Shown: positions 15,770 to 33,005 of the stretch, in pieces | Layout of the letters: every line of letters starts with the position of its first letter | How positions within the stretch are numbered: position 1 is the first letter of the stretch | DNA from: Deltaproteobacteria bacterium | GTDB lineage: Bacteria > Desulfobacterota > BSN033 > UBA1163 | DNA length: 52,863 nt | Assembly (NCBI GenBank): GCA_018333535.1 | Contig: JAGXTA010000173.1 | Location: 1 to 52,863 of the forward strand | Direction: 5' to 3' | The notes under the pieces: generated by a model | Database searches by the model: none | Seen by the model: the letters and a program-made list of their open reading frames with translations, nothing else | What the model was told of the DNA's origin: nothing | Translations under genes and position numbers: made by a program

Positions 15770-17483
<1,714 letters not shown>

Positions 17484-18075: not shown

Positions 18076-19893
18076 TTGATCTTTTTAAAAGGATCCGAAC
18101 ATCGATGGTTGATCTTCCGCTGTGGAGTCTCCTTTCTCCTGATCCTGGGGACACCGATCCTGATTTTTGGAGCGAAGGCTCAGGCTCAAACGCCGGCAGA
18201 AGCCCAGGAATCTCTTCAAATCATCGTCGAAGGACTGGAGGGAGAGGAATTGAAGAATGTTCAGGCCACCCTCGCGCCTCCGCCTGGGTTAGTGAGGGAA
18301 GGCAAAGTGGATCAATTATGGCTGGAGCGTTTTCAGGCCCAGACTCCCGATAGAGTTCGACAAGCCTTGGAGCCTTTCGGATACTATCACCCCCGGATCG
18401 ACATCTCTCTTGAAACTCCCGGCGTGGGGATATACCGGCTTCATGTCAAAGTGGAGCGGGGAGAACCGGTTCGCATCAAATCGTTAAAGGTCCTGGTCCA
18501 GGGTCCCGGATTAGCGGAGCGAAGGCTCAGAGAACAACTCAAAGGCTTTCCCCTGAAGCAAGGGGATGTGCTCGATCACCGGAAATATGAAGAGGCCAAA
18601 GGAAACCTCAGAACAGAAGCACTCGATCTCGGATATCTCGATGCCGACTTTTCCGCCCATACAATCAGGGTATCCCTAACAGAACATAGCGCCGGGATTG
18701 AACTCGTCCTTGAGACCGGCCCCAGGTATTTTTTCGGAGAGGTGCGCATCGAGGGCGCTCCGGAATACCCTGAAGGCTTTTTAAGGAGATATTTGGCCTT
18801 CCATTCCGGCGAACCCTTTTCTTCTTCAAAAATCTTTCAAACCCAGATCAATTTTAACAATTCCGACCGCTTCCAGGAGGTCATCATCCTCCCTGGCAAG
18901 GAATCTGCCGTAGACTTCAGGGTGCCTGTTCAGATCAAGCTTGCACCTTCGCGTCCAAAACGCTTGCGGTTTGGGATCGGTTATGGGACGGATACGGGGG
19001 CAAGGGGAAAGGCAAATTACCAGGACCTGAACTTCAATCATTGGGGGCATGAATGGCATGTTGAACTGAATCTCTCGGAGCGACTTCAGGGGTTGGTGAC
19101 AAGATATGTCTTGCCCAGCCACTCGGATCTCGGCAGTTTCACCTCTCTTAAGGCAGGGCTTCAGAAAGAGGAGGCAAGGACCTATGATAGCCGGGCCATC
19201 TCGTTCGAATTGGAACATACAAGGAGTCTGGGCAGGGGAAGGCTGGGTTCCGGATATTTCCAGGTGCGGAGAGAGGATTTTGAGGTCGGGTTTCAAAAAG
19301 GACGATCGCGCCTCGTGATGCCCGGTCTCCGGTTTAACGAAAGGCGTTACGACGATCTGGTGCGTCCCAGGAAAGGATACCGGTATGCGCTCGAGCTGAG
19401 GGGGACCGATCAGTTCCTTGGATCGGATACGGGTTTCCTGCAATTTCTGTTCGAGGGAGATTTAATCTTTCCCCTGCCCCTGGAGTTCCTTCTTCTTGCC
19501 CGTGGCCAGGGAGGGTTTACTCTCCTGAGCGATCCCCTCCCGGACATCCCCCCCTCCATCCGCTTCTTTGCCGGCGGGGACCGGAGCGTCCGAGGGTATG
19601 CCTACCAATCCCTCGGCCCTAGGGATGCAAGCAACAAGGTGATCGGCGGCAAGCATCTCCTCGTGGGAAGCGTGGAGCTTGAACGGAGGATTTCAAAAAT
19701 CTGGGGGGTGGCCGCCTTTTACGATGCGGGAAATGCTTTTAATCACTTTGGAAAGATCGATGCTCAACAGGGGGTGGGAATCGGCCTCCGGCTTTATACG
19801 CCCGTGGGCCCTATTAGGTTGGACCTTGCCCGTCAGGTGGGAGTAAAGGACCCTGATTTTCGCATCCATCTGACCGTAGGTTTTGGATTATGA
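18076..19893 (+). CDS. tamA: TamA, outer-membrane Omp85-family translocation module
   Basis: TamA inserts proteins into the outer membrane and works with TamB. The 605-residue product has an uncleaved-looking N-terminal hydrophobic stretch (VSFLLILGTPILIFG) ending in AKAQAQ, consistent with a signal peptide. POTRA-like domains span about residues 48-270 (GYYHPRIDISL; VRIKSLKVLVQG; YFFGEVRIEG). A 16-strand-type barrel covers about 290-605 and ends in an aromatic/hydrophobic terminal strand (HLTVGFGL). The barrel contains the Omp85 RFFAGGDRSVRGYAYQSLGP motif. Translation appears to start at TTG 18076. Its last codons overlap tamB by 4 bases (ATGA). Confidence 0.9.
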   Translation: MIFLKGSEHRWLIFRCGVSFLLILGTPILIFGAKAQAQTPAEAQESLQIIVEGLEGEELKNVQATLAPPPGLVREGKVDQLWLERFQAQTPDRVRQALEPFGYYHPRIDISLETPGVGIYRLHVKVERGEPVRIKSLKVLVQGPGLAERRLREQLKGFPLKQGDVLDHRKYEEAKGNLRTEALDLGYLDADFSAHTIRVSLTEHSAGIELVLETGPRYFFGEVRIEGAPEYPEGFLRRYLAFHSGEPFSSSKIFQTQINFNNSDRFQEVIILPGKESAVDFRVPVQIKLAPSRPKRLRFGIGYGTDTGARGKANYQDLNFNHWGHEWHVELNLSERLQGLVTRYVLPSHSDLGSFTSLKAGLQKEEARTYDSRAISFELEHTRSLGRGRLGSGYFQVRREDFEVGFQKGRSRLVMPGLRFNERRYDDLVRPRKGYRYALELRGTDQFLGSDTGFLQFLFEGDLIFPLPLEFLLLARGQGGFTLLSDPLPDIPPSIRFFAGGDRSVRGYAYQSLGPRDASNKVIGGKHLLVGSVELERRISKIWGVAAFYDAGNAFNHFGKIDAQQGVGIGLRLYTPVGPIRLDLARQVGVKDPDFRIHLTVGFGL

Positions 19894-22800
19894 GACGGTG
19901 GTTCATATTCTTCCTTTTCTTATTCCTGATCGTCGCCGGATTCGCTCTGGCTGCCACTTATCTGTTCAACACCACGGAGGGCGCCCGGTGGCTCATGGGT
20001 GCCATCTCACACCTCACACCCGTTAAGATCGATGCTGAGAACGTTGCCGGCCAATTACGGAAAGAACTCCGGATGGAGAAAGTTCACATCCGCTGGCCCC
20101 AGGGGGAAATGGAAGTCAACTACCTTCAGCTTCGCTGGCAACCCCTTTCTCTGCTCCTGAGAAGATTGGCGGTGAACGATTTGATATTACAGGGACTTCA
20201 GATCAAGAATCATCGGCCTGAGAGCAAAACTCCGCTTGATCTGACATGGCCTAAAATCCCCGGCTCCCTTTTCTGGGTCCATGGGGAGATCAGGAACCTC
20301 AATGTCAGGAATTTTTCGTATCGGCGTGGGAATCACGATCCTTTCAAGGCGGATAGGTTTGTTGCGAAACTCAAGTGGAACCATGGCATTTTAGTCATGG
20401 AAAAGATGAACCTCGAAATCCCTTCCGGAATCGTCAAAGGAAGCTTGGAATTCGGCCTCCTGAGACCCGGCCTTACCCTCGATCTGCATATCTCGCCCTC
20501 CGTGCCTCTTCTCGGTTTGGATCGCTTCGGTTTAAGAACACGGCTCCTTCCGGCCCGGGGGCCGGAACAAGTGGCCGGCAATGTATCCATTGAAGGGGCC
20601 TCCCGTTCGATAAAACAACTGACGATCGAAAGTGAAATCGGAATCGCTCCCGAAGCCCTCGCCCTCCGAAAATTCCTTCTTTCACGGCCTGGCAGGCAGG
20701 GAACGCTAACAGGAGAAGGAAGGGTTGCGTTCACAGGGGATGATCTTCTGATGAACCTGAAGATGAATTTTTCCGATCTCGACATCACACGGGAGTCGGG
20801 CCTCCGGACAACCCTTTCCGGAACCCTTCAGGTTGAAGGCAATCCAAATGATTACAGAGGCAATATCAACATCGAAAATGCCAAAGGAGAATGGTATTCC
20901 GGAAATCTCTCCGGCCATTTCAGAGGATCGCTCAAGAGGCTCCGGTGGACCCTTCTCGACGGCTCGATACTCGATGGAAATGTACGGGGCCATCTGAACG
21001 CAGAATGGGAAGAAGGCCTCTCCCTGAATGGGGCCATTCAGGCTACAAATCTCAATCCGGTGGGTATTGCTCCGGATTGGGATGGAAAGATCAATCTAAA
21101 TCTCGAAGGCTCATTCCGCTTGCCAAAAGGGAAGTCGCCCGAGGGAAGGCTCAAAGCCCACTTCCCCGAAAGCTATCTCAGGGGTCACCAACTCACGGGC
21201 GATATCGATTTGCACCTGGAGAAGTCCCTCCTGCACCTTGTGAGGGCAAATCTCAGGGGGAAAGGATTCGATTTATTCGCAACCGGAGCCATTCCGGAAA
21301 GGGTCGACTTCAAGGCGGAGATCAGCGATCTTTCCGGATTGGTCCCGGGGGTAAGGGGGACCCTTCTAAGCAGGGGCTGGTTCGGTTGGCGCAACGGCCT
21401 CCTGGCCCTGAGCATCGACAGCCAGGGCAAGGGGCTTTTCATCAAGGGAACGGAGGTGGGCAGGCTGGATCTTTCCGCCCGTTTCGATCGAGGCGAGGAC
21501 GCCCGGGTTGAACTGAAAGGAGGTTTCCGGAAGGTGGCCTATCAATCCTTGAGGATCGACTCCGCCTCATTGGATGCGGTGGGCCATCTGACCCGGCATA
21601 AGATTCTCTTTTCCGTCCGCTTTCCCGAGGGTGACGGGATAGACGGTTCTATGGAAGGTGGATATGCGAAGGAGGCTTGGCAGGGGACAATTGTTCATCT
21701 GACGGGAAGGGACAAGAGAGGCTCCCTCAGAATGGAGGCCCCCGCTTCATTGCTTCTCTCATCCCGTCAGGTTGCCCTGAAATCCTTTTCAGTCACCTCC
21801 TCACAGGGGGAAAGGGTGGAACTTTCTGCCGATCTCTCCCTGCGCCCTTTACGGGGGATGGTGCAGGCGGAATGGCACCGGTTTGACCTGGCCCGGATCA
21901 ATCCATGGCTTCGCAATCGCCGCCTTGCGGCGCTGGCGACAGGAGGTTTGAACGTTCAATGGCTGGAAGAAGACCGCATGAAAATGGCAGGCACGGTGAA
22001 TCTAACAGGAACCCATGCAGGCCCGTCTCTGAAAGTGGATCTCTCGCGGGGGTGGGTCCAATTCGACTGGAATGAAAAGAGGCTCAAGGCCACGGGAGAT
22101 TTCGAGTTTGAAACGGGCGGGAAGTTTCGCGCAGACCTTTCATCTCCCCAGCCTGCGCGGATGGCTTTTCCAAAACCGGCCCACCTGGATGTCCGCTGGG
22201 AGGCGATTGACCTTTCCTTCTTTCGCCCCTGGCTTCCCCAAACCGTCGATTTAGACGGCAGGCTCTCGGGCCGTCTCTCCGGACAGTGGCTGCATGGCCC
22301 GCGATTTGATCATACGGGAGAGATCAAGGTTTCTGAAGGAACGTTAAAATGGCAAAATGGGCAGGGGCAAATCGCAACCGATGTGCAAACCCTGGATCTT
22401 CACTGGAGGTGGCGTGACGGGGCTTTAAGGGGACGGTTTTCCCTGGGACTGAACCAGCTTGGCAATCTGAAGGGCAGTTTCGATTTTCCTGTGGCGCCGC
22501 AACTGCCTGTGGCCGTTCAGCGCAAAGGTCCTGTGCAATTCTCTCTCCGGGGGCAGCTCAGGGAAAGAGGGCTGTTGACAGCTTTTTTCCCGGACTTTCT
22601 TCAGGAAAGCCGCGGTCAGGTGGAGCTGGACCTGAGCGCCGAGGGAACATGGGAGAATCCTCGCCTGAAGGGCCTTCTAAAACTGAAAAAGGTGGAGGTT
22701 CATCTGCCGGCAGGCAAAGTCCGGCCAAAAACCGCAAAGGACAATCTTTCTGGAGCCCCCCTGAAATTAGAGTTGCCTCAAGGGCTGTTGAAATTCAATT

Positions 22801-24530
22801 GGGATGAGAAGGAACTGATAATGACAGGGGATTTCGATTTTGTCGATCAGGGCAAAATCCAGGCAAAGATTTCATCGCCTCAATCCGGCCGCATGGCCTT
22901 TCCCGAGCAGGGAACGGTCGAGGCCAAATGGCAGGCGATCGATGTTCACCTGTTTAAGCCATGGTTTCCCGATCAGCTTGTTCTCGAAGGCCAATGGGTG
23001 GGCCGCCTCTCCGGACAATGGTCCAAGACGAAATTCGACACAACGGGTGAAATGAAGATGATGAAAGGCACGGTCGGTTGGCAGCATAAAGAGGGTCTCC
23101 TCCGTGCTTCGGTTCAAACAGCGGACGTAAAATGGGCCTGGCGGGATGAGTGGTTGCGCGGCGAACTCTCGCTTTCACTGGCGGAGTATGGTCATGTCAA
23201 AGGCAATTTTCAACTCCCTATCATCGCCCGTTTGCCTGTGGCCGCTCAGCCTGCCGCCCTTATCCGTCTTTCTCTCCAGGGGCAGTTCCGGGAGAAAGGG
23301 CTGCTTCCTGCCTTCCTGCCGGGAATGATCCAGGAAAGTCAGGGGCAAGTTTACGTAAACCTCACGGGCGGCGGAACCTGGCAGAATCCCCGTTTCGAAG
23401 GCGATCTGAAACTGGAGAAGGCGGGGGGATATCTCCCCACAGCCGGAATTCGCCTGAAAGACCTGGATATCGAGGCCCGATGGATGGGAGATCAGGTTCA
23501 GATTACTTCTTTTCGGACTCGTTCCGGCCCCGGCCATATCGAAGGCATGGCCACGGTCTGGTTGGAGAACTGGAAGGTTTCACGCTACCAGGGCAGTCTT
23601 AAGGGGGACCGTTTCCAAACCATCTATTTCCCGGAGTTGCAGGTTCAGAGCGCTCCCCATCTTCATTTCGAAGGCTCAATGCAAAAGTTATCCGTGAGGG
23701 GTGAGATAAGGTTGCCGGAAGTTTCGATTTTCAGTCCCCAGACAGGAGAAACCATCCGGCCAAGCCCTGATGTCATCGTTATGGACAGGCCCGAAGTCCC
23801 TCAAAAAGGCCTGCCCGTCGCAGTAGATATTCAGGTTCGTTTTCTTCTCGGAGAGAAGGCCTTTGTTAAGGCCGAGGGGATCGAGGCACGGTTGGTAGGA
23901 ACTGTGGGACTTAATATTCAAGATCCCGGGCAGGTCAATGCCGAAGGAGAGATTCGTGTCGCCGAAGGCCATTACAACATCTATGGGCAAAAGCTGGAAA
24001 TTACCAGGGGCCGTCTCATCTTTGCCAGGGGTCCGGTAGACAACTCCGCTCTGGATGCGGTCGCGGTGCGAAAGATCAGGGAGGTGCAGGCAGGAGTCCT
24101 GGTCGCAGGAACCTTGAAATCGCCCGTTGTAAAACTCTATTCACGGCCTTCCATGACGGACACGGATATTCTCTCTTACATCATCCTGGGCCAACCCCTC
24201 GGAACCGGCAAGGAGCAGGCTCCCTCGCTCATGCAGGCTGCCGCAGGACTGCTTTCCGCAGGGGAATCGGTGGTGCTGCAGGGTCGGTTGAAAAAACTAT
24301 TGGGTCTGGATGTACTTGACATACAGACGGGAGGCGATGATCTATCCCGTTCCATGGTCACGGTGGGGAAGTATCTCACTCCCAAACTTTATATCAGTCT
24401 GGGCCGCTCTCTCTTCACGGAAGCGACGTTTGTCACCCTGCGTTATACTCTTTCGAAACGTCTTGAAATCGAAACCCACGCGGGAACAGAGAGCGGTGCG
24501 AGTATCTACTACAGGATCGAATTCAAATAA
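19890..24530 (+). CDS. tamB: TamB, giant periplasm-spanning translocation/lipid-transfer protein
   Basis: The 1546-residue protein has one N-terminal transmembrane anchor (residues 4-25), a long beta-helical AsmA/TamB-like body and the conserved C-terminal TamB (DUF490) domain, with DTDILSYIILGQPLG and a final amphipathic strand region ending YRIEFK. TamB pairs with TamA and bridges the inner and outer membranes; a role in phospholipid transport is known for the family. The middle contains two tandem copies of a module of about 245 residues (about 721-960 and 965-1200). It overlaps tamA by 4 bases, so the pair is an operon. Confidence 0.93.
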   Translation: MRRWFIFFLFLFLIVAGFALAATYLFNTTEGARWLMGAISHLTPVKIDAENVAGQLRKELRMEKVHIRWPQGEMEVNYLQLRWQPLSLLLRRLAVNDLILQGLQIKNHRPESKTPLDLTWPKIPGSLFWVHGEIRNLNVRNFSYRRGNHDPFKADRFVAKLKWNHGILVMEKMNLEIPSGIVKGSLEFGLLRPGLTLDLHISPSVPLLGLDRFGLRTRLLPARGPEQVAGNVSIEGASRSIKQLTIESEIGIAPEALALRKFLLSRPGRQGTLTGEGRVAFTGDDLLMNLKMNFSDLDITRESGLRTTLSGTLQVEGNPNDYRGNINIENAKGEWYSGNLSGHFRGSLKRLRWTLLDGSILDGNVRGHLNAEWEEGLSLNGAIQATNLNPVGIAPDWDGKINLNLEGSFRLPKGKSPEGRLKAHFPESYLRGHQLTGDIDLHLEKSLLHLVRANLRGKGFDLFATGAIPERVDFKAEISDLSGLVPGVRGTLLSRGWFGWRNGLLALSIDSQGKGLFIKGTEVGRLDLSARFDRGEDARVELKGGFRKVAYQSLRIDSASLDAVGHLTRHKILFSVRFPEGDGIDGSMEGGYAKEAWQGTIVHLTGRDKRGSLRMEAPASLLLSSRQVALKSFSVTSSQGERVELSADLSLRPLRGMVQAEWHRFDLARINPWLRNRRLAALATGGLNVQWLEEDRMKMAGTVNLTGTHAGPSLKVDLSRGWVQFDWNEKRLKATGDFEFETGGKFRADLSSPQPARMAFPKPAHLDVRWEAIDLSFFRPWLPQTVDLDGRLSGRLSGQWLHGPRFDHTGEIKVSEGTLKWQNGQGQIATDVQTLDLHWRWRDGALRGRFSLGLNQLGNLKGSFDFPVAPQLPVAVQRKGPVQFSLRGQLRERGLLTAFFPDFLQESRGQVELDLSAEGTWENPRLKGLLKLKKVEVHLPAGKVRPKTAKDNLSGAPLKLELPQGLLKFNWDEKELIMTGDFDFVDQGKIQAKISSPQSGRMAFPEQGTVEAKWQAIDVHLFKPWFPDQLVLEGQWVGRLSGQWSKTKFDTTGEMKMMKGTVGWQHKEGLLRASVQTADVKWAWRDEWLRGELSLSLAEYGHVKGNFQLPIIARLPVAAQPAALIRLSLQGQFREKGLLPAFLPGMIQESQGQVYVNLTGGGTWQNPRFEGDLKLEKAGGYLPTAGIRLKDLDIEARWMGDQVQITSFRTRSGPGHIEGMATVWLENWKVSRYQGSLKGDRFQTIYFPELQVQSAPHLHFEGSMQKLSVRGEIRLPEVSIFSPQTGETIRPSPDVIVMDRPEVPQKGLPVAVDIQVRFLLGEKAFVKAEGIEARLVGTVGLNIQDPGQVNAEGEIRVAEGHYNIYGQKLEITRGRLIFARGPVDNSALDAVAVRKIREVQAGVLVAGTLKSPVVKLYSRPSMTDTDILSYIILGQPLGTGKEQAPSLMQAAAGLLSAGESVVLQGRLKKLLGLDVLDIQTGGDDLSRSMVTVGKYLTPKLYISLGRSLFTEATFVTLRYTLSKRLEIETHAGTESGASIYYRIEFK

Positions 24531-27925: not shown

Positions 27926-29545
27926 ATGATCAATCTCCTCTTTGGCCTCGTCGGCGGGGTTGGCCTGTTTCTGCTGGGGATGTCTTTGTTAGCCGACGGA
28001 CTCAAGTCTTTTGCCGGCGATGCGCTTCGACGGGCGCTGTTGCGGTTCACGGGGAGGCCGGTCAAGGCGTTCGCCTCCGGCGCGTTAGCGACCGCCCTGG
28101 TGCAATCCTCCAGCGCAACAACGGTGACGGTGATCGGTTTCGTGAGCGCGGGGTTACTGACCTTCCCCCAGGCGGTCGGGGTTGTGCTCGGGGCAAGTCT
28201 CGGCACGACGAGCACGGGATGGTTGGTCTCGGTGCTGGGCCTCAAGGTCAATGTGGGATTCTACGCCTTGCCCCTGGTGGGTATCGGGGCGTTCCTAAAA
28301 TTGCTGGCGCCGGGACAATGGAAATCTTTCGGCCTGGCGCTGGCCGGGTTCGGCCTGATTTTTATCGGTATCCAGACGCTGCAGTCAGGGATGGAGGGAT
28401 TTTCGGGTATTTTCCGGTTCCCGGAGTTTACTTTAGCTGGGTTCATCGGAGACGCCGTCTTTGTGTTGTTCGGCCTGGCGTTGACGGTGGTTCTGCAGTC
28501 ATCAAGCGCAGCCGTGGCTACGACGTTGACGGCGTTGCATACCGGTTCGATCCACTTCGAACAGGCAGCTCTGCTGGTGATCGGCGCGGCCATCGGCACA
28601 ACGGTGACAGGCGCCCTGGCCGCTATCGGCGCCAGCGTGTCAACCCGGCGGACGGCGCTGGCCCACGTCCTGTTCAATCTGGCAACGGGCCTGATCGCGG
28701 TGGGGTTGCTGCCGTTGTTTTTAGGGGGGATCCGGTGGGGACAGGAATTTCTGGGACTGGAACCGGGAGCGGTCAGCCTCGCAGCATTTCACACCTCGTT
28801 CATCGCTCTTGGGGTGTTGTTGTTTCTACCGTTTGTGGATCGGTTCTCTCGATGGATTGAGCGACTGCTGCCCGAAAAGGGGCCGACGTTGACGCGTCAT
28901 CTCGACCCCACGGTACTCAACGTTCCCCCCGTGGCATTGGAGGCAACCCGGCGCGTCTTGAGCGATACGGCGGGCCAGATGTTCCAAATCCTGCACGCCC
29001 GTCTCATGGACCGTCCGGTGGACGCATCTGGAACCCGTCGCCTGGAGCTCCAACATGCGCTCAACCAGACGCAGGAATTCTTTTCCAGGATTCCGCCAGG
29101 GGCCGAGGGACAACCCTTGTCACAGGCACGCGTGGCTCAGGTTCATGCCATTGAGCACATGATGCGGCTCCAGTCAAGGCTTCAACCGCCGCCCTTTTTA
29201 AGACAGAAGGCGGAACATGACCATCTGCACCAAAATGTGACGCTCCTCCGCGAAATTCTGGAGCTGGGGATGTCGGGGTTGCAGGGTTACGCCACGGGGG
29301 ATTGGTTGAAAAGAATGGAGAAAAGTTCGATAGAGTTGTCGGAGCTTCAGCAGAAAGGGCGTCCCACGGTTCTCCTGCAAACCGCGGGCGGCAGCCGGTC
29401 CCCCGCAGCGGCTCTGGATACGCTGGATGCCATGCGATGGCTTGACCGCGCGGGATACCACATCTGGCGCATCTGTAATTATCTGGGCGGAGAAGGGTTG
29501 CCCGAGCCCACTCTCGTGGAAGGACAATCCCATCCGGAGGAGTGA
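27926..29545 (+). CDS. Na+/phosphate cotransporter family protein (NptA/YjbB-like) with PhoU-like tail
   Basis: The 539-residue inner-membrane protein has two inverted Na_Pi_cotrans repeats, each with the hallmark QSSSA motif (QSSSATTVT near residue 60 and QSSSAAVATT near 192), and about 8-9 hydrophobic helices up to residue 320. A soluble alpha-helical C-terminal domain of the PhoU-like type follows (residues 340-520). It should import phosphate with Na+, or export phosphate as shown for YjbB. The ATG follows AGGAGTTGAG, and a sigma-70-like promoter lies at 27834. A stump of a second gene of this family is at 41.0 kb. Confidence 0.92.
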   Translation: MINLLFGLVGGVGLFLLGMSLLADGLKSFAGDALRRALLRFTGRPVKAFASGALATALVQSSSATTVTVIGFVSAGLLTFPQAVGVVLGASLGTTSTGWLVSVLGLKVNVGFYALPLVGIGAFLKLLAPGQWKSFGLALAGFGLIFIGIQTLQSGMEGFSGIFRFPEFTLAGFIGDAVFVLFGLALTVVLQSSSAAVATTLTALHTGSIHFEQAALLVIGAAIGTTVTGALAAIGASVSTRRTALAHVLFNLATGLIAVGLLPLFLGGIRWGQEFLGLEPGAVSLAAFHTSFIALGVLLFLPFVDRFSRWIERLLPEKGPTLTRHLDPTVLNVPPVALEATRRVLSDTAGQMFQILHARLMDRPVDASGTRRLELQHALNQTQEFFSRIPPGAEGQPLSQARVAQVHAIEHMMRLQSRLQPPPFLRQKAEHDHLHQNVTLLREILELGMSGLQGYATGDWLKRMEKSSIELSELQQKGRPTVLLQTAGGSRSPAAALDTLDAMRWLDRAGYHIWRICNYLGGEGLPEPTLVEGQSHPEE

Positions 29546-29568
29546 GGAGATTTCGGAGGAATGTGTTT

Positions 29569-29912
29569 ATGATCGAGACCACCCCCGGCCTGTTGTTCGT
29601 TTTATTCATGCTTCTGGCTTCTTCTGCCTTCTTCTCGGGTTCTGAAACGGCCTTTATGTCCATCAGCAACGGCCTCCTGGCTCTCTTCGGCATCGATGTC
29701 TCGAAAAAGAAGAGACCGGCCATGACGGAAGCGGAGATCCTGACCTATATCAAAATGATGCACAGCTCCTCAGTTTCAAACAGAAGCGGTTCCACCAGGC
29801 GCTGGTGAGAGACGAAGAGGGAAAGGTGATCGGCCTGGTGACGCTCGAGGATATCCTGGAGGAGCCGGTTGGCGAGATCGAAGATGAACATGACGAATTG
29901 GAAAAACCGTAA
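29569..29912 (+). pseudogene. CNNM/CorC (HlyC-type) transporter gene with internal deletion
   Basis: The 5' part encodes [20 protein letters not shown], the start of the DUF21 membrane domain. The 3' part, in another frame, encodes [39 protein letters not shown] and [10 protein letters not shown], the end of a CBS-pair domain. Between them only a few dozen codons remain where about 250 are expected, and the frame is broken. The family (400-450 residues) is involved in Mg2+ or Co2+ efflux, so this copy is dead. Confidence 0.82.
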
Positions 29913-29961
29913 TGACGTTCCAAGAGCCCGGTGGCCGCTGATTCATCCTCTGGGTAAGGGA

Positions 29962-30711
29962 ATGATCCGTCTGATCAATTATCTGGGGGCGGTGTCCATC
30001 TTTATGGGGAAGTCCCTTTTCATGATCTTCCAGCCCAGGCAGGTTCCTCTCATCATTGAACAGGTCTATTCCATCGGAGCCCGTTCGGCGCTGATCGTTT
30101 TGCTGGTGGGGCTCTTTACCGGCATGGTCCTGGGCCTGCAGCTCTTTCACACCCTGGTGAAATTCGGTTCCGCTGGGGTCCTTGGTTCAGCCGTTGCCCT
30201 CTCCCTGGTCCGGGAGCTCGGGCCCGTGTTAACGGCGATCATGGTAACGGCCAGGGCAGGTTCTGCCATGGCCGCGGAGATCGGCAGCCAGAGAATCTCG
30301 GAACAGATCGACGCCCTGGTGACGATGCGGATCGATCCCCTTCGGTACCTGGTCAGTCCGAGGATCGCCGCCTCGATCATCAGCTTCCCCCTGTTGACGG
30401 CCCTGTTCGACATCATCGGGATCATTGGCGGCTACATCACCGGCGTGATGCTCCTGGGGGTCAATGCAGGGGCCTATTTCTACAGGGTCCGGTCGAGCGT
30501 GGAGATGGAGGATATCACGAGTGGCTTCGTCAAGGCGGTGGTGTTCGCCGTAATCGTTTCAACGATCTGCTGTTTCCAGGGATATTTCACCCATATGCAG
30601 AAAGACAGCTATGGCGCCAAGGCCGTGGGACTTTCCACGACCTCGGCGGTCGTATTGTCATGCGTTTTGATCCTGGTGGCAGATTATGTCGTCACCTCTC
30701 TGCTCATGTAG
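29962..30711 (+). CDS. mlaE: MlaE-type ABC permease of a phospholipid transport system
   Basis: The 249-residue product has the MlaE permease fold with five or more hydrophobic helices and the conserved central region SLVRELGPVLTAIMVTARAG, then SAMAAEIGSQRISEQIDAL (the coupling helix). It sits in the inner membrane with MlaF and, through MlaD, moves phospholipids between the membranes. The frame is open upstream to 29869, overlapping the CNNM remnant. I place the start at ATG 29962 because MlaE homology and usual length begin there; ATG 29884 or 29890 remain possible. It is the first gene of mlaE-F-D-C. Confidence 0.9.
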   Translation: MIRLINYLGAVSIFMGKSLFMIFQPRQVPLIIEQVYSIGARSALIVLLVGLFTGMVLGLQLFHTLVKFGSAGVLGSAVALSLVRELGPVLTAIMVTARAGSAMAAEIGSQRISEQIDALVTMRIDPLRYLVSPRIAASIISFPLLTALFDIIGIIGGYITGVMLLGVNAGAYFYRVRSSVEMEDITSGFVKAVVFAVIVSTICCFQGYFTHMQKDSYGAKAVGLSTTSAVVLSCVLILVADYVVTSLLM

Positions 30712-30723
30712 GCGGATGGATCT

Positions 30724-31965
30724 ATGGGAAAGCCACTGATCGAATTCAAGGGAGTCACCAAGCGTTTTAACAGCCATACCGTCCTCGATCAGGTTGATCT
30801 TGAGATCTATGAGGGAGAGGTAGCCACCATCATCGGGAAGAGCGGAGGCGGCAAGAGCGTGCTGCTCAAGCACATTGTCGGGCTCCTCCAACCGGACGAA
30901 GGCATGATTCTATTTGGCGGCCAACCGATTTATAAAATGGGCAAGAAGGAGTGGAACCGGTATATCAGCCAGGTGAGTTACATGTTCCAGAACAATGCCC
31001 TTTTCGATTCGATGACGGTCTTCGATAACATCGCCTTCCCCCTCCGGCAAACGACCCACCTGGGCCGGAGGGCGATCGAGGAAAAGGTCAGGACAAGATT
31101 GGAGCAGATGGAGCTTGGCGACGTGGGGGGAAAATATCCCTCGGAACTCTCCGGAGGCATGCAAAAGCGTGTGGCATTGAGCCGGGCCCTGGTCACGGAT
31201 CCGAGGATTGTGCTTTTTGATGAACCCACTACCGGCCAGGATATGATCCGGAGAAACGCCATATTAAGCATGATTGCACAATACCAGAGACGATTTGGAT
31301 TTACCGCGGTACTGATCAGCCATGACGTGCCGGATGTCTTCTTCATCTCGAGCCGCATTCTTGCTCTCGACGAAGGGAAGATTGTCTTTCAGGGAACGCC
31401 CGAGGCGTTTGAGACGTTTCAACATCCCTTCCAGGACGAGTTCGTCGATAGCCTCGAGGAATTGCAAGAGCATCTGACGGGAATTTATTCAAAACGGCAT
31501 TTTAAGGTCCGATATCAGAAGCTTCTCGGCCGGAAGCGGCCCCAGGAAAGGTTCGTCGTGGGACTCTTCGCTCTCGATCATTTCGAAGATCTCTGCGAAC
31601 ACCTCGGGCATACCGCCGGACAGGAAATTCTTGATTCCCTGGGAAAGTACATCAATAAACACTTTGGGGCCGTGGGAGGATTTTCCGCCCGGCAAAGCAG
31701 AAGTCAATTTTCAATTGTACTCCCTTTTTCAAACCTCCCGGAAGCTGAGCAGATTCTCAGGGACTTCTCCATGGAGCTTCGGGAGGAGGGGTTGCGCACC
31801 ATTCAAACAGAAGCCCGCATCCACCGGGAGGCCTGTTTTGAATTCGCCGTCCTTGCCGGGCTTGCCGAGGGGGAATTCGGCGTCAAAGAAATTGATCGCA
31901 TCCTCGGCCAGGCCCGGAAGAATCAAAGGGAAGTCGCCCGGGTTCATTGTGGAAAACGGAGGTAG
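30724..31965 (+). CDS. mlaF: MlaF-type ATPase fused to a degenerate GGDEF domain
   Basis: Residues 1-245 are an ABC ATPase with Walker A GKSGGGKS, Q-loop YMFQNNALFDSMT, signature LSGGMQKRV, Walker B IVLFDEPTTGQD and switch His in LISHDVPDV. This energises MlaE. From residue 251 a second domain begins with LTGIYSKRHF, continues with FALDHFEDLCEHLGHTAGQE and SRSQFSIVLP, and reaches about residue 360. That is the order of motifs of a GGDEF (diguanylate cyclase) domain with GGDEF replaced by SRSQF and the first metal Asp by Ala, so it should be catalytically dead. Usual MlaF has about 260-270 residues; this has 413. It overlaps no neighbour; mlaD starts 6 bases on. Confidence 0.9.
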   Translation: MGKPLIEFKGVTKRFNSHTVLDQVDLEIYEGEVATIIGKSGGGKSVLLKHIVGLLQPDEGMILFGGQPIYKMGKKEWNRYISQVSYMFQNNALFDSMTVFDNIAFPLRQTTHLGRRAIEEKVRTRLEQMELGDVGGKYPSELSGGMQKRVALSRALVTDPRIVLFDEPTTGQDMIRRNAILSMIAQYQRRFGFTAVLISHDVPDVFFISSRILALDEGKIVFQGTPEAFETFQHPFQDEFVDSLEELQEHLTGIYSKRHFKVRYQKLLGRKRPQERFVVGLFALDHFEDLCEHLGHTAGQEILDSLGKYINKHFGAVGGFSARQSRSQFSIVLPFSNLPEAEQILRDFSMELREEGLRTIQTEARIHREACFEFAVLAGLAEGEFGVKEIDRILGQARKNQREVARVHCGKRR

Positions 31966-31971
31966 AGCGGA

Positions 31972-32424
31972 ATGAAAAAATATCATTATGAAACCGTCGC
32001 CGGCATTTTTGTGCTGGTCGGGTTGTTGTGCGTAGGGTACCTGGTGGTTCAACTGGGAGACGTTCGAATCTTCGGCAAGGATTCCTACACCCTCTCCGCC
32101 CGCTTTACTTCGGTTTCGGGTTTAAGGGTGGGCAATCCCGTGGAGATGCTCGGGATAGAGATCGGACAGGTGGAAAGCCTGGAGATCGATCAGAAAAACC
32201 AGGTGGCCGTCGTGACATTGAGAATCAAGAAGGGGATCAATCTCTACGACGATGCAATGGCCTCCATCAAAACCGCAGGCTTGATCGGCGATCGATACAT
32301 CGGCATCGATCCGGGAGGGGGAGGGGAAATCCTGAAGCCTGGGGAGAGCATCACGGAGACCGAATCGCCGGTGGATATCGAAGAATTGGTCAAAAAATAC
32401 GCTTTTGGCGAGGTGAAAAAATGA
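31972..32424 (+). CDS. mlaD: MlaD-type MCE-domain lipid-binding protein
   Basis: The 150-residue protein has one N-terminal transmembrane helix (VAGIFVLVGLLCVGYLVVQL) and one MCE domain (YTLSARFTSVSGLRVGNPVE, GIEIGQVESLEI, TAGLIGDRYIGIDPGG). MCE proteins form hexameric rings on the periplasmic face of MlaE and pass phospholipids. The length is typical. It overlaps the following mlaC by 4 bases (ATGA), a sign of coupled translation. Confidence 0.93.
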   Translation: MKKYHYETVAGIFVLVGLLCVGYLVVQLGDVRIFGKDSYTLSARFTSVSGLRVGNPVEMLGIEIGQVESLEIDQKNQVAVVTLRIKKGINLYDDAMASIKTAGLIGDRYIGIDPGGGGEILKPGESITETESPVDIEELVKKYAFGEVKK

Positions 32425-33005
32425 GGAGGCGATGGAGGAAATTCGGAGTCCTTCTATTTGCACTGATGACCGTTTCTGCTTCAGCAATGGCGGGAGAAGC
32501 CCTCCGGGCCATTGAAGCGCACGTCAACAGAGTCCTCGAAGTGGTTGACAATCCGGCTTTAAAAGACAAGGCAGTCAAAGAAGAGAAAGTTCAATCGATC
32601 GTCGACGAAATCTTTAACTACGCCGAGCTTTCGAAGAGGGCCCTTGCAATCCATTGGCAATCCTTCAGCCCTGAACAACAGAAGGAGTTCACGCACCTCT
32701 TCGGTAAACTGCTCAGGCAAGTGTACATGGACCGAATTCTTGCACATACGAATGAGAAGGTCGTTTTCGGCAAAGAAACCAGGCTTTCTGAAAACAGAAT
32801 CGAGGTTGAAAGCGAGATCCTGATGCCGACGAAATCGATCCCTGTCCGGTACAGGATGATTCTTCAAAAAGGCCAGTGGAAGATCTACGATGTCGTGGTT
32901 GAAGGAGTCAGCCTGGTCCAGAATTACCGGAGCCAGTTCAGGGGGATTCTATCAAAAGAGACACCCGAGGGACTGTTAAGGATTCTCCGGCAAAAAGTTG
33001 CCTGA
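32421..33005 (+). CDS. mlaC: MlaC-type periplasmic phospholipid-binding protein
   Basis: The 194-residue product begins with a signal peptide (MRRRWRKFGVLLFALMTVSA, cleavage near ASAMAG). It shows the MlaC/Ttg2D pattern: VQSIVDEIFNYAELSKRALA, WQSFSPEQQKEFTHLF, then WKIYDVVVEGVSLVQNYRSQF. It shuttles phospholipid across the periplasm between MlaD and an outer-membrane partner. No MlaA is in the window. The open frame extends far upstream in the mlaD shadow; the real start is the ATG overlapping the mlaD stop. Confidence 0.93.
   Translation: MRRRWRKFGVLLFALMTVSASAMAGEALRAIEAHVNRVLEVVDNPALKDKAVKEEKVQSIVDEIFNYAELSKRALAIHWQSFSPEQQKEFTHLFGKLLRQVYMDRILAHTNEKVVFGKETRLSENRIEVESEILMPTKSIPVRYRMILQKGQWKIYDVVVEGVSLVQNYRSQFRGILSKETPEGLLRILRQKVA

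Follow-up and report, generated by a model that had tools for sequence, protein, structure and literature searches.

A degenerate GGDEF domain fused to an MlaF-type ABC ATPase in an mla-type operon

An mla-type operon in the 52,863-nucleotide stretch of DNA analyzed here (the window) was found to encode an MlaF-type ABC ATPase, whose C-terminal part has the GGDEF fold. By alignment, this domain was shown to be without the residues for making c-di-GMP by known chemistry. Both halves of the protein are of known kinds, and what appears to be new is their combination, in a large family that probably had a single origin. The author of an earlier note on this DNA knew of no description of such a link. 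In line with it, no description of an MlaF-GGDEF fusion, or of GGDEF as a control domain of an ABC ATPase, was found in the open-access literature searched, which does not prove its absence elsewhere.

The fused ATPase and its operon

The operon has the order mlaE > mlaF-type > mlaD > mlaC, as assigned by Pfam (Table 1). An ordinary ABC domain spans the first ~237 residues of the mlaF-type product; its Walker A (GKSGGGKS), Walker B (VLFDEP), and signature (SGGMQKR) motifs are intact, and the switch histidine is found in SHD. The best Mla model, the NCBI MlaF equivalog model NF008809, gave 181.6 bits, short of its cut-off of 441; the protein is therefore classified as MlaF-type, and not as an equivalog of E. 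coli MlaF. Like the MlaF of the E. coli MlaFEDB system, it has an ABC domain, the partners MlaE, MlaD, and MlaC, and a methionine in the signature SGGM. The naming of the host protein as an MlaF ATPase in the earlier note is upheld at the level of MlaF-type, with MlaE, MlaD, and MlaC as its neighbors. Three mlaE loci are present in the source genome: that of the window, a canonical mlaEFDCA locus on contig C23, with an MlaF of 248 residues, and a divergent locus on contig C59.

Table 1. Coordinates of the mla-type operon in the window, and of domains and motifs within the fused ATPase.
Feature	Positions	Strand	Basis or remark
mlaE permease	29869-30711	+	PF02405, E=3.1e-76; without N-terminal STAS domain
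mlaF-type gene, ABC ATPase and pseudo-GGDEF, 413 aa	30724-31965	+	PF00005 and PF00990, single ORF
ABC nucleotide-binding domain	30724-31434	+	Pfam ABC_tran, residues 21-170 (E=1.6e-33), and motifs
Linker helix and LTG cap, residues 237-253	31432-31482	+	Conserved in 60 fusions; helix in models
Pseudo-GGDEF domain	31474-31965 (linker included, from ~31432)	+	PF00990, solved-domain matches, predicted structure
GHTAGQ replacing GHxxGD	31606-31623	+	Alignment, census
KHFGAVGGFSAR, residues 312-323, near-invariant motif replacing I-site RxxD	31657-31692	+	Conservation in 60 fusions
SRSQF replacing GG(D/E)EF	31696-31710	+	Alignment
mlaD (MCE domain)	31972-32424	+	PF02470, E=1.6e-21; TIGR04430 above cut-off
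mlaC-type periplasmic carrier	32421-33005	+	PF05494, E=4.6e-44; start overlaps mlaD end

The GGDEF fold of the C-terminal domain was confirmed by profile, sequence, and structure comparisons. A search with the whole protein matched residues 250-372 to PF00990 (E=1e-12, 48.6 bits against a curated cut-off of 23.8), and the C-terminal part searched alone covered profile positions 5-157 of 161 (51.1 bits, E=1.6e-13). The solved GGDEF domains of SadC, WspR, and PleD were matched by plain sequence search, with a best E of 4.6e-7. An AlphaFold2 model of the domain, made with a 60-sequence alignment of natural sequences, reached a pLDDT of 88 and a pTM of 0.80, and the first 46 Foldseek matches of this model in the PDB were all GGDEF proteins, PleD included. 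The full-length monomer prediction had a pTM of 0.65, which leaves the placement of the domain unsure. The earlier note had placed a GGDEF fold after the ABC domain, at an interval that proved correct apart from a slightly earlier start when the linker helix is counted, and had proposed an HMM search and a structure prediction as checks; the former scored above its cut-off, and the latter returned the palm-like cyclase fold. Across 60 fusions, the linker has the consensus DExxxSLExLQxELTG.

Other genes in the neighborhood were also inspected. The MlaC-type protein scored higher with the HpnM model TIGR03481 (78.8 bits, below cut-off) than with the E. coli MlaC model (NCBIfam). Just upstream of mlaE lies an 88-residue frame (29542-29808, + strand), whose start is similar to the N-terminal domain of CNNM/CorC (PF01595, 27.7 bits, slightly under the cut-off), and which is probably left over from a longer gene. 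Adjacent frames that by eye are TamA-like (BamA-like) and TamB-like (AsmA-like, 1546 aa) lie ~5-6 kb upstream of the operon (18076-24530, + strand); TamA/TamB is another system linked to phospholipid transport. A frame at 15770-16978 (+ strand), which by eye is glucose-6-phosphate isomerase-like, ends early after an unrelated-looking tail, and a frameshift before ~16770 is suggested.

Lost and newly conserved residues of the domain

The residues of the domain were compared in an alignment to PleD-type GGDEF domains, using PleD numbering. The window segment ARQ-SRSQF-SIVLP aligns with ARY-GGEEF-x-x-LP, in agreement with the catalytic changes that the earlier note had read at this site. C and Q take the places of the guanine contacts N335 and D344, S takes that of the metal ligand E370, and RxxD is missing from the I-site. 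D327 is retained, at a variable position where family members have D, E, K, S, N, or yet other residues. Among the hallmarks of an active cyclase (GG(D/E)EF, D327, N335, and D344), the window protein has D327 only. An active cyclase fused to MlaF was sought among 101 fusions and in a wider set, and GG(D/E)EF was found to be lost in every member inspected.

Residue censuses were taken for the 101 fusions, and then for 85 non-redundant members of group I, to which the window protein belongs. D344 is Q in 74 of the 85, and E370 is N in 59. The I-site aspartate is G in 99/101 fusions of the undivided census; its reading as G in 85/85 group I members holds by construction, since group I is defined by that G. 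Within the motif that occupies the place of RxxD, G319 and R323 were conserved in 60/60 fusions, F314 and G318 in 59/60, and S321 in 58/60. Residues invariant in all 60 are E239, S243, F260, F282, G319, R323, P334, G379, and A397; LTG, KHFGAxGGFS(T/A)R, and NE(F/I) are nearly invariant, and GHxAAQ is a further family motif. The near-invariant residues cluster at the former I-site and at the active-site hairpin. Read from these sequences, the degenerate domain is a case of conserved repurposing, not of decay. The domain gave dN/dS estimates (Nei-Gojobori, against close relatives, and only where synonymous sites were unsaturated) of 0.06-0.18, and the ABC part gave 0.04-0.12; by this measure the fused domain was shown to be under purifying selection.

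Distribution and origin of the fusion

With a profile spanning the junction of the two domains (E<=1e-30), the fusion was detected in 52 of 395 sampled genomes of the phylum, belonging to 33 of 245 genera. This distribution rules out an oddity of one single genome and, with the same open frame present in many independent genomes, an artefact of frameshift or misassembly. In a species-wide scan that listed the best 80 of 282 relatives, the bearers of the 80 named loci included Syntrophaceae, Smithellaceae, Desulfobacterales, and Desulfamplus magnetovallimortis. In another class of the phylum, 84 of 291 genomes matched a profile built mostly from group II, the sister set of group I; some group I members are among these matches. 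The order E > F-fusion > D > C > A was seen in 52 of about 95 fusion loci, most of the remainder being interrupted by contig ends or by the limits of the span examined.

Group II is also without GG(D/E)EF, and typically reads GMNKI at this position. RxxD is kept in 26/38 members, exactly five residues before the GGDEF position, and N335 is kept in 22/38; Q at 344, and often N at 370, are common to both groups. The RxxD-bearing group II fusions are candidate c-di-GMP-binding transporter ATPases. Among the group II fusions (loci L153-L158, L166-L195), RPNDTCSRYGMAKI is an example of RxxD at the exact I-site position without GG(D/E)EF. At another locus (L152, 477-6829), a group I fusion lies within mlaEFDCA and is directly followed by a second MlaF-type gene, a group II fusion, which gives two fused ATPases in one cluster; this gene order was found at four fusion loci in the operon census.

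A quick tree was built from the ABC columns only; it contained 52 fused rows and, from the same genomes, 18 MlaF proteins without the fusion, among which the root was assumed. All fused rows fell on one side of one branch (SH-aLRT 100), requiring a single label change, and because all fusions lie beyond this branch, a single fusion event is probable. In the same tree, group I branches from among group II, suggesting that the loss of catalysis preceded that of the I-site. In a tree of the domain, the fused domains were separated from 19 genuine GGDEF domains with a support of 99.

Relation to STAS proteins and possible roles

For E. coli MlaF to remain in its complex, both MlaB, a STAS protein, and a tail of ~25 residues that clasps the other MlaF are required, and MlaF without its tail is largely rescued by a forced-dimer GCN4 tag (PMC7367683). 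The window protein instead has a pseudo-GGDEF domain of ~165 residues, with no STAS partner nearby; a conserved helix (residues 237-250) leads into the fused domain at the point at which the handshake tail of E. coli MlaF would begin. No STAS_2 match at E<=0.001 was found anywhere in the source genome. Among 40 fusion-linked mlaE genes (44 genomes with the fusion), none had STAS_2 within 5 kb, and none encoded an MlaE with an N-terminal STAS domain or a long STAS-MlaE frame. STAS was present at 30 of 70 other mlaE loci of the same genomes (Fisher p=8e-8 against the fusion loci, a value that overstates independence, as the contrast rests on related loci of shared ancestry). Strict complementarity is ruled out by 33 other short-frame MlaE loci of these genomes with neither STAS nor the fused domain, the canonical mla locus on C23 among them. 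The fused domain and STAS are mutually exclusive, but not strictly complementary. Many genomes with the fusion also have a second Mla-type system with STAS fused to the N-terminus of MlaE (e.g., L221-L227), a counterpart to the MlaF fusion.

The chances are about even that the dead GGDEF-fold domain is a fixed C-terminal regulatory or assembly domain of an Mla-type ATPase, standing in for MlaB and the handshake tail. It would then do the job that is split in E. coli between these two elements. Like the C-terminal domains of MetN and MalK, it might hang beneath both nucleotide-binding domains, and it might pair with its twin, or bind the ATPase directly, to hold or tune the ATPase dimer. MetN and MalK likewise have a folded domain after the ABC domain, expected in that position, although their regulatory C-terminal domains have folds unrelated to GGDEF. 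In other ABC ATPases, C-terminal domains associate with one another beneath the ATPases (PMC7367683), and in the BcsE-BcsQ pair a dead GGDEF domain binds an NTPase via a face separate from its nucleotide site (PMC7439463). A partner or ligand at the KHFGAxGGFS(T/A)R face could set activity, and we think that a protein or intramolecular contact there is more likely than a guanine nucleotide, although the strongly conserved new motif could equally be a ligand site. Against a stand-in for MlaB are the 33 loci lacking both STAS and fusion, from which it follows that such a stand-in is not strictly needed.

Sensing of GTP or c-di-GMP by the window domain, coupling lipid transport to nucleotide levels as the earlier note had proposed, is improbable. 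The fold is present, the source genome encodes other, higher-scoring GGDEF proteins, and RxxD persists in most of the sister group, but N335, D344, E370, and RxxD are all gone from the window protein, and the I-site stretch of group I has been exchanged for an invariant motif of another kind. BcsE and PelD, which are likewise non-catalytic GGDEF folds within envelope transport or secretion systems, bind c-di-GMP via RxxD (PMC7439463), and neither has an ABC ATPase joined to it; the window protein is without this motif, whereas most of group II has it. It is possible, though less likely than not, that one GGDEF-ATPase fusion founded the family, that RxxD-bearing group II members are still switched by c-di-GMP at the old I-site, and that the KHFGAxGGFSTR face of the window group is a new regulatory site, which would link the second messenger to outer-membrane lipid balance.

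It is unlikely that the domain is instead a docking site for a separate signaling protein, such as an active diguanylate cyclase, placing the transporter under local c-di-GMP machinery. GGDEF domains function in pairs, dead GGDEF proteins frequently act through protein contacts (as BcsE does with BcsQ), and other GGDEF proteins occur in the source genome, but no gene for a GGDEF protein was seen next to mlaEFDC in the window, and no partner was predicted. It is likewise unlikely that the KHFGAxGGFSTR / Q300 face binds some other small molecule, for instance a lipid or a nucleotide of a different kind: the grouping of near-invariant residues at the former I-site and the active-site hairpin, and the Q344 and frequent N370 shared by both groups, are consistent with it, but conserved faces are equally often protein contacts, and we know of no ligand site with the KHFGAxGGFSTR motif. 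That the domain is a functionless vestige is hardly credible, for although its catalytic residues are gone, dN/dS is low, the family has invariant residues of its own, and the fusion extends over the 33 genera noted above.

The regulation of the Mla transporter, and what MlaB senses, are open questions (PMC7367683), and a large natural family, in which a regulator of well-understood fold is fused to the ATPase, would offer a handle on them. If the RxxD-bearing members of group II do bind c-di-GMP, phospholipid transport would be under direct second-messenger control, and GGDEF would join the folds used for the control of ABC ATPases. A transporter with a C-terminal GGDEF domain was also matched by sequence search in the ammonium transporter of PDB 8qj3, which is a channel-type transporter of another family than the window MlaF. 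Elsewhere in the source genome, a frame at 5680-6066 of contig C6 (L005) was found to match GGDEF with one in-frame TGA.
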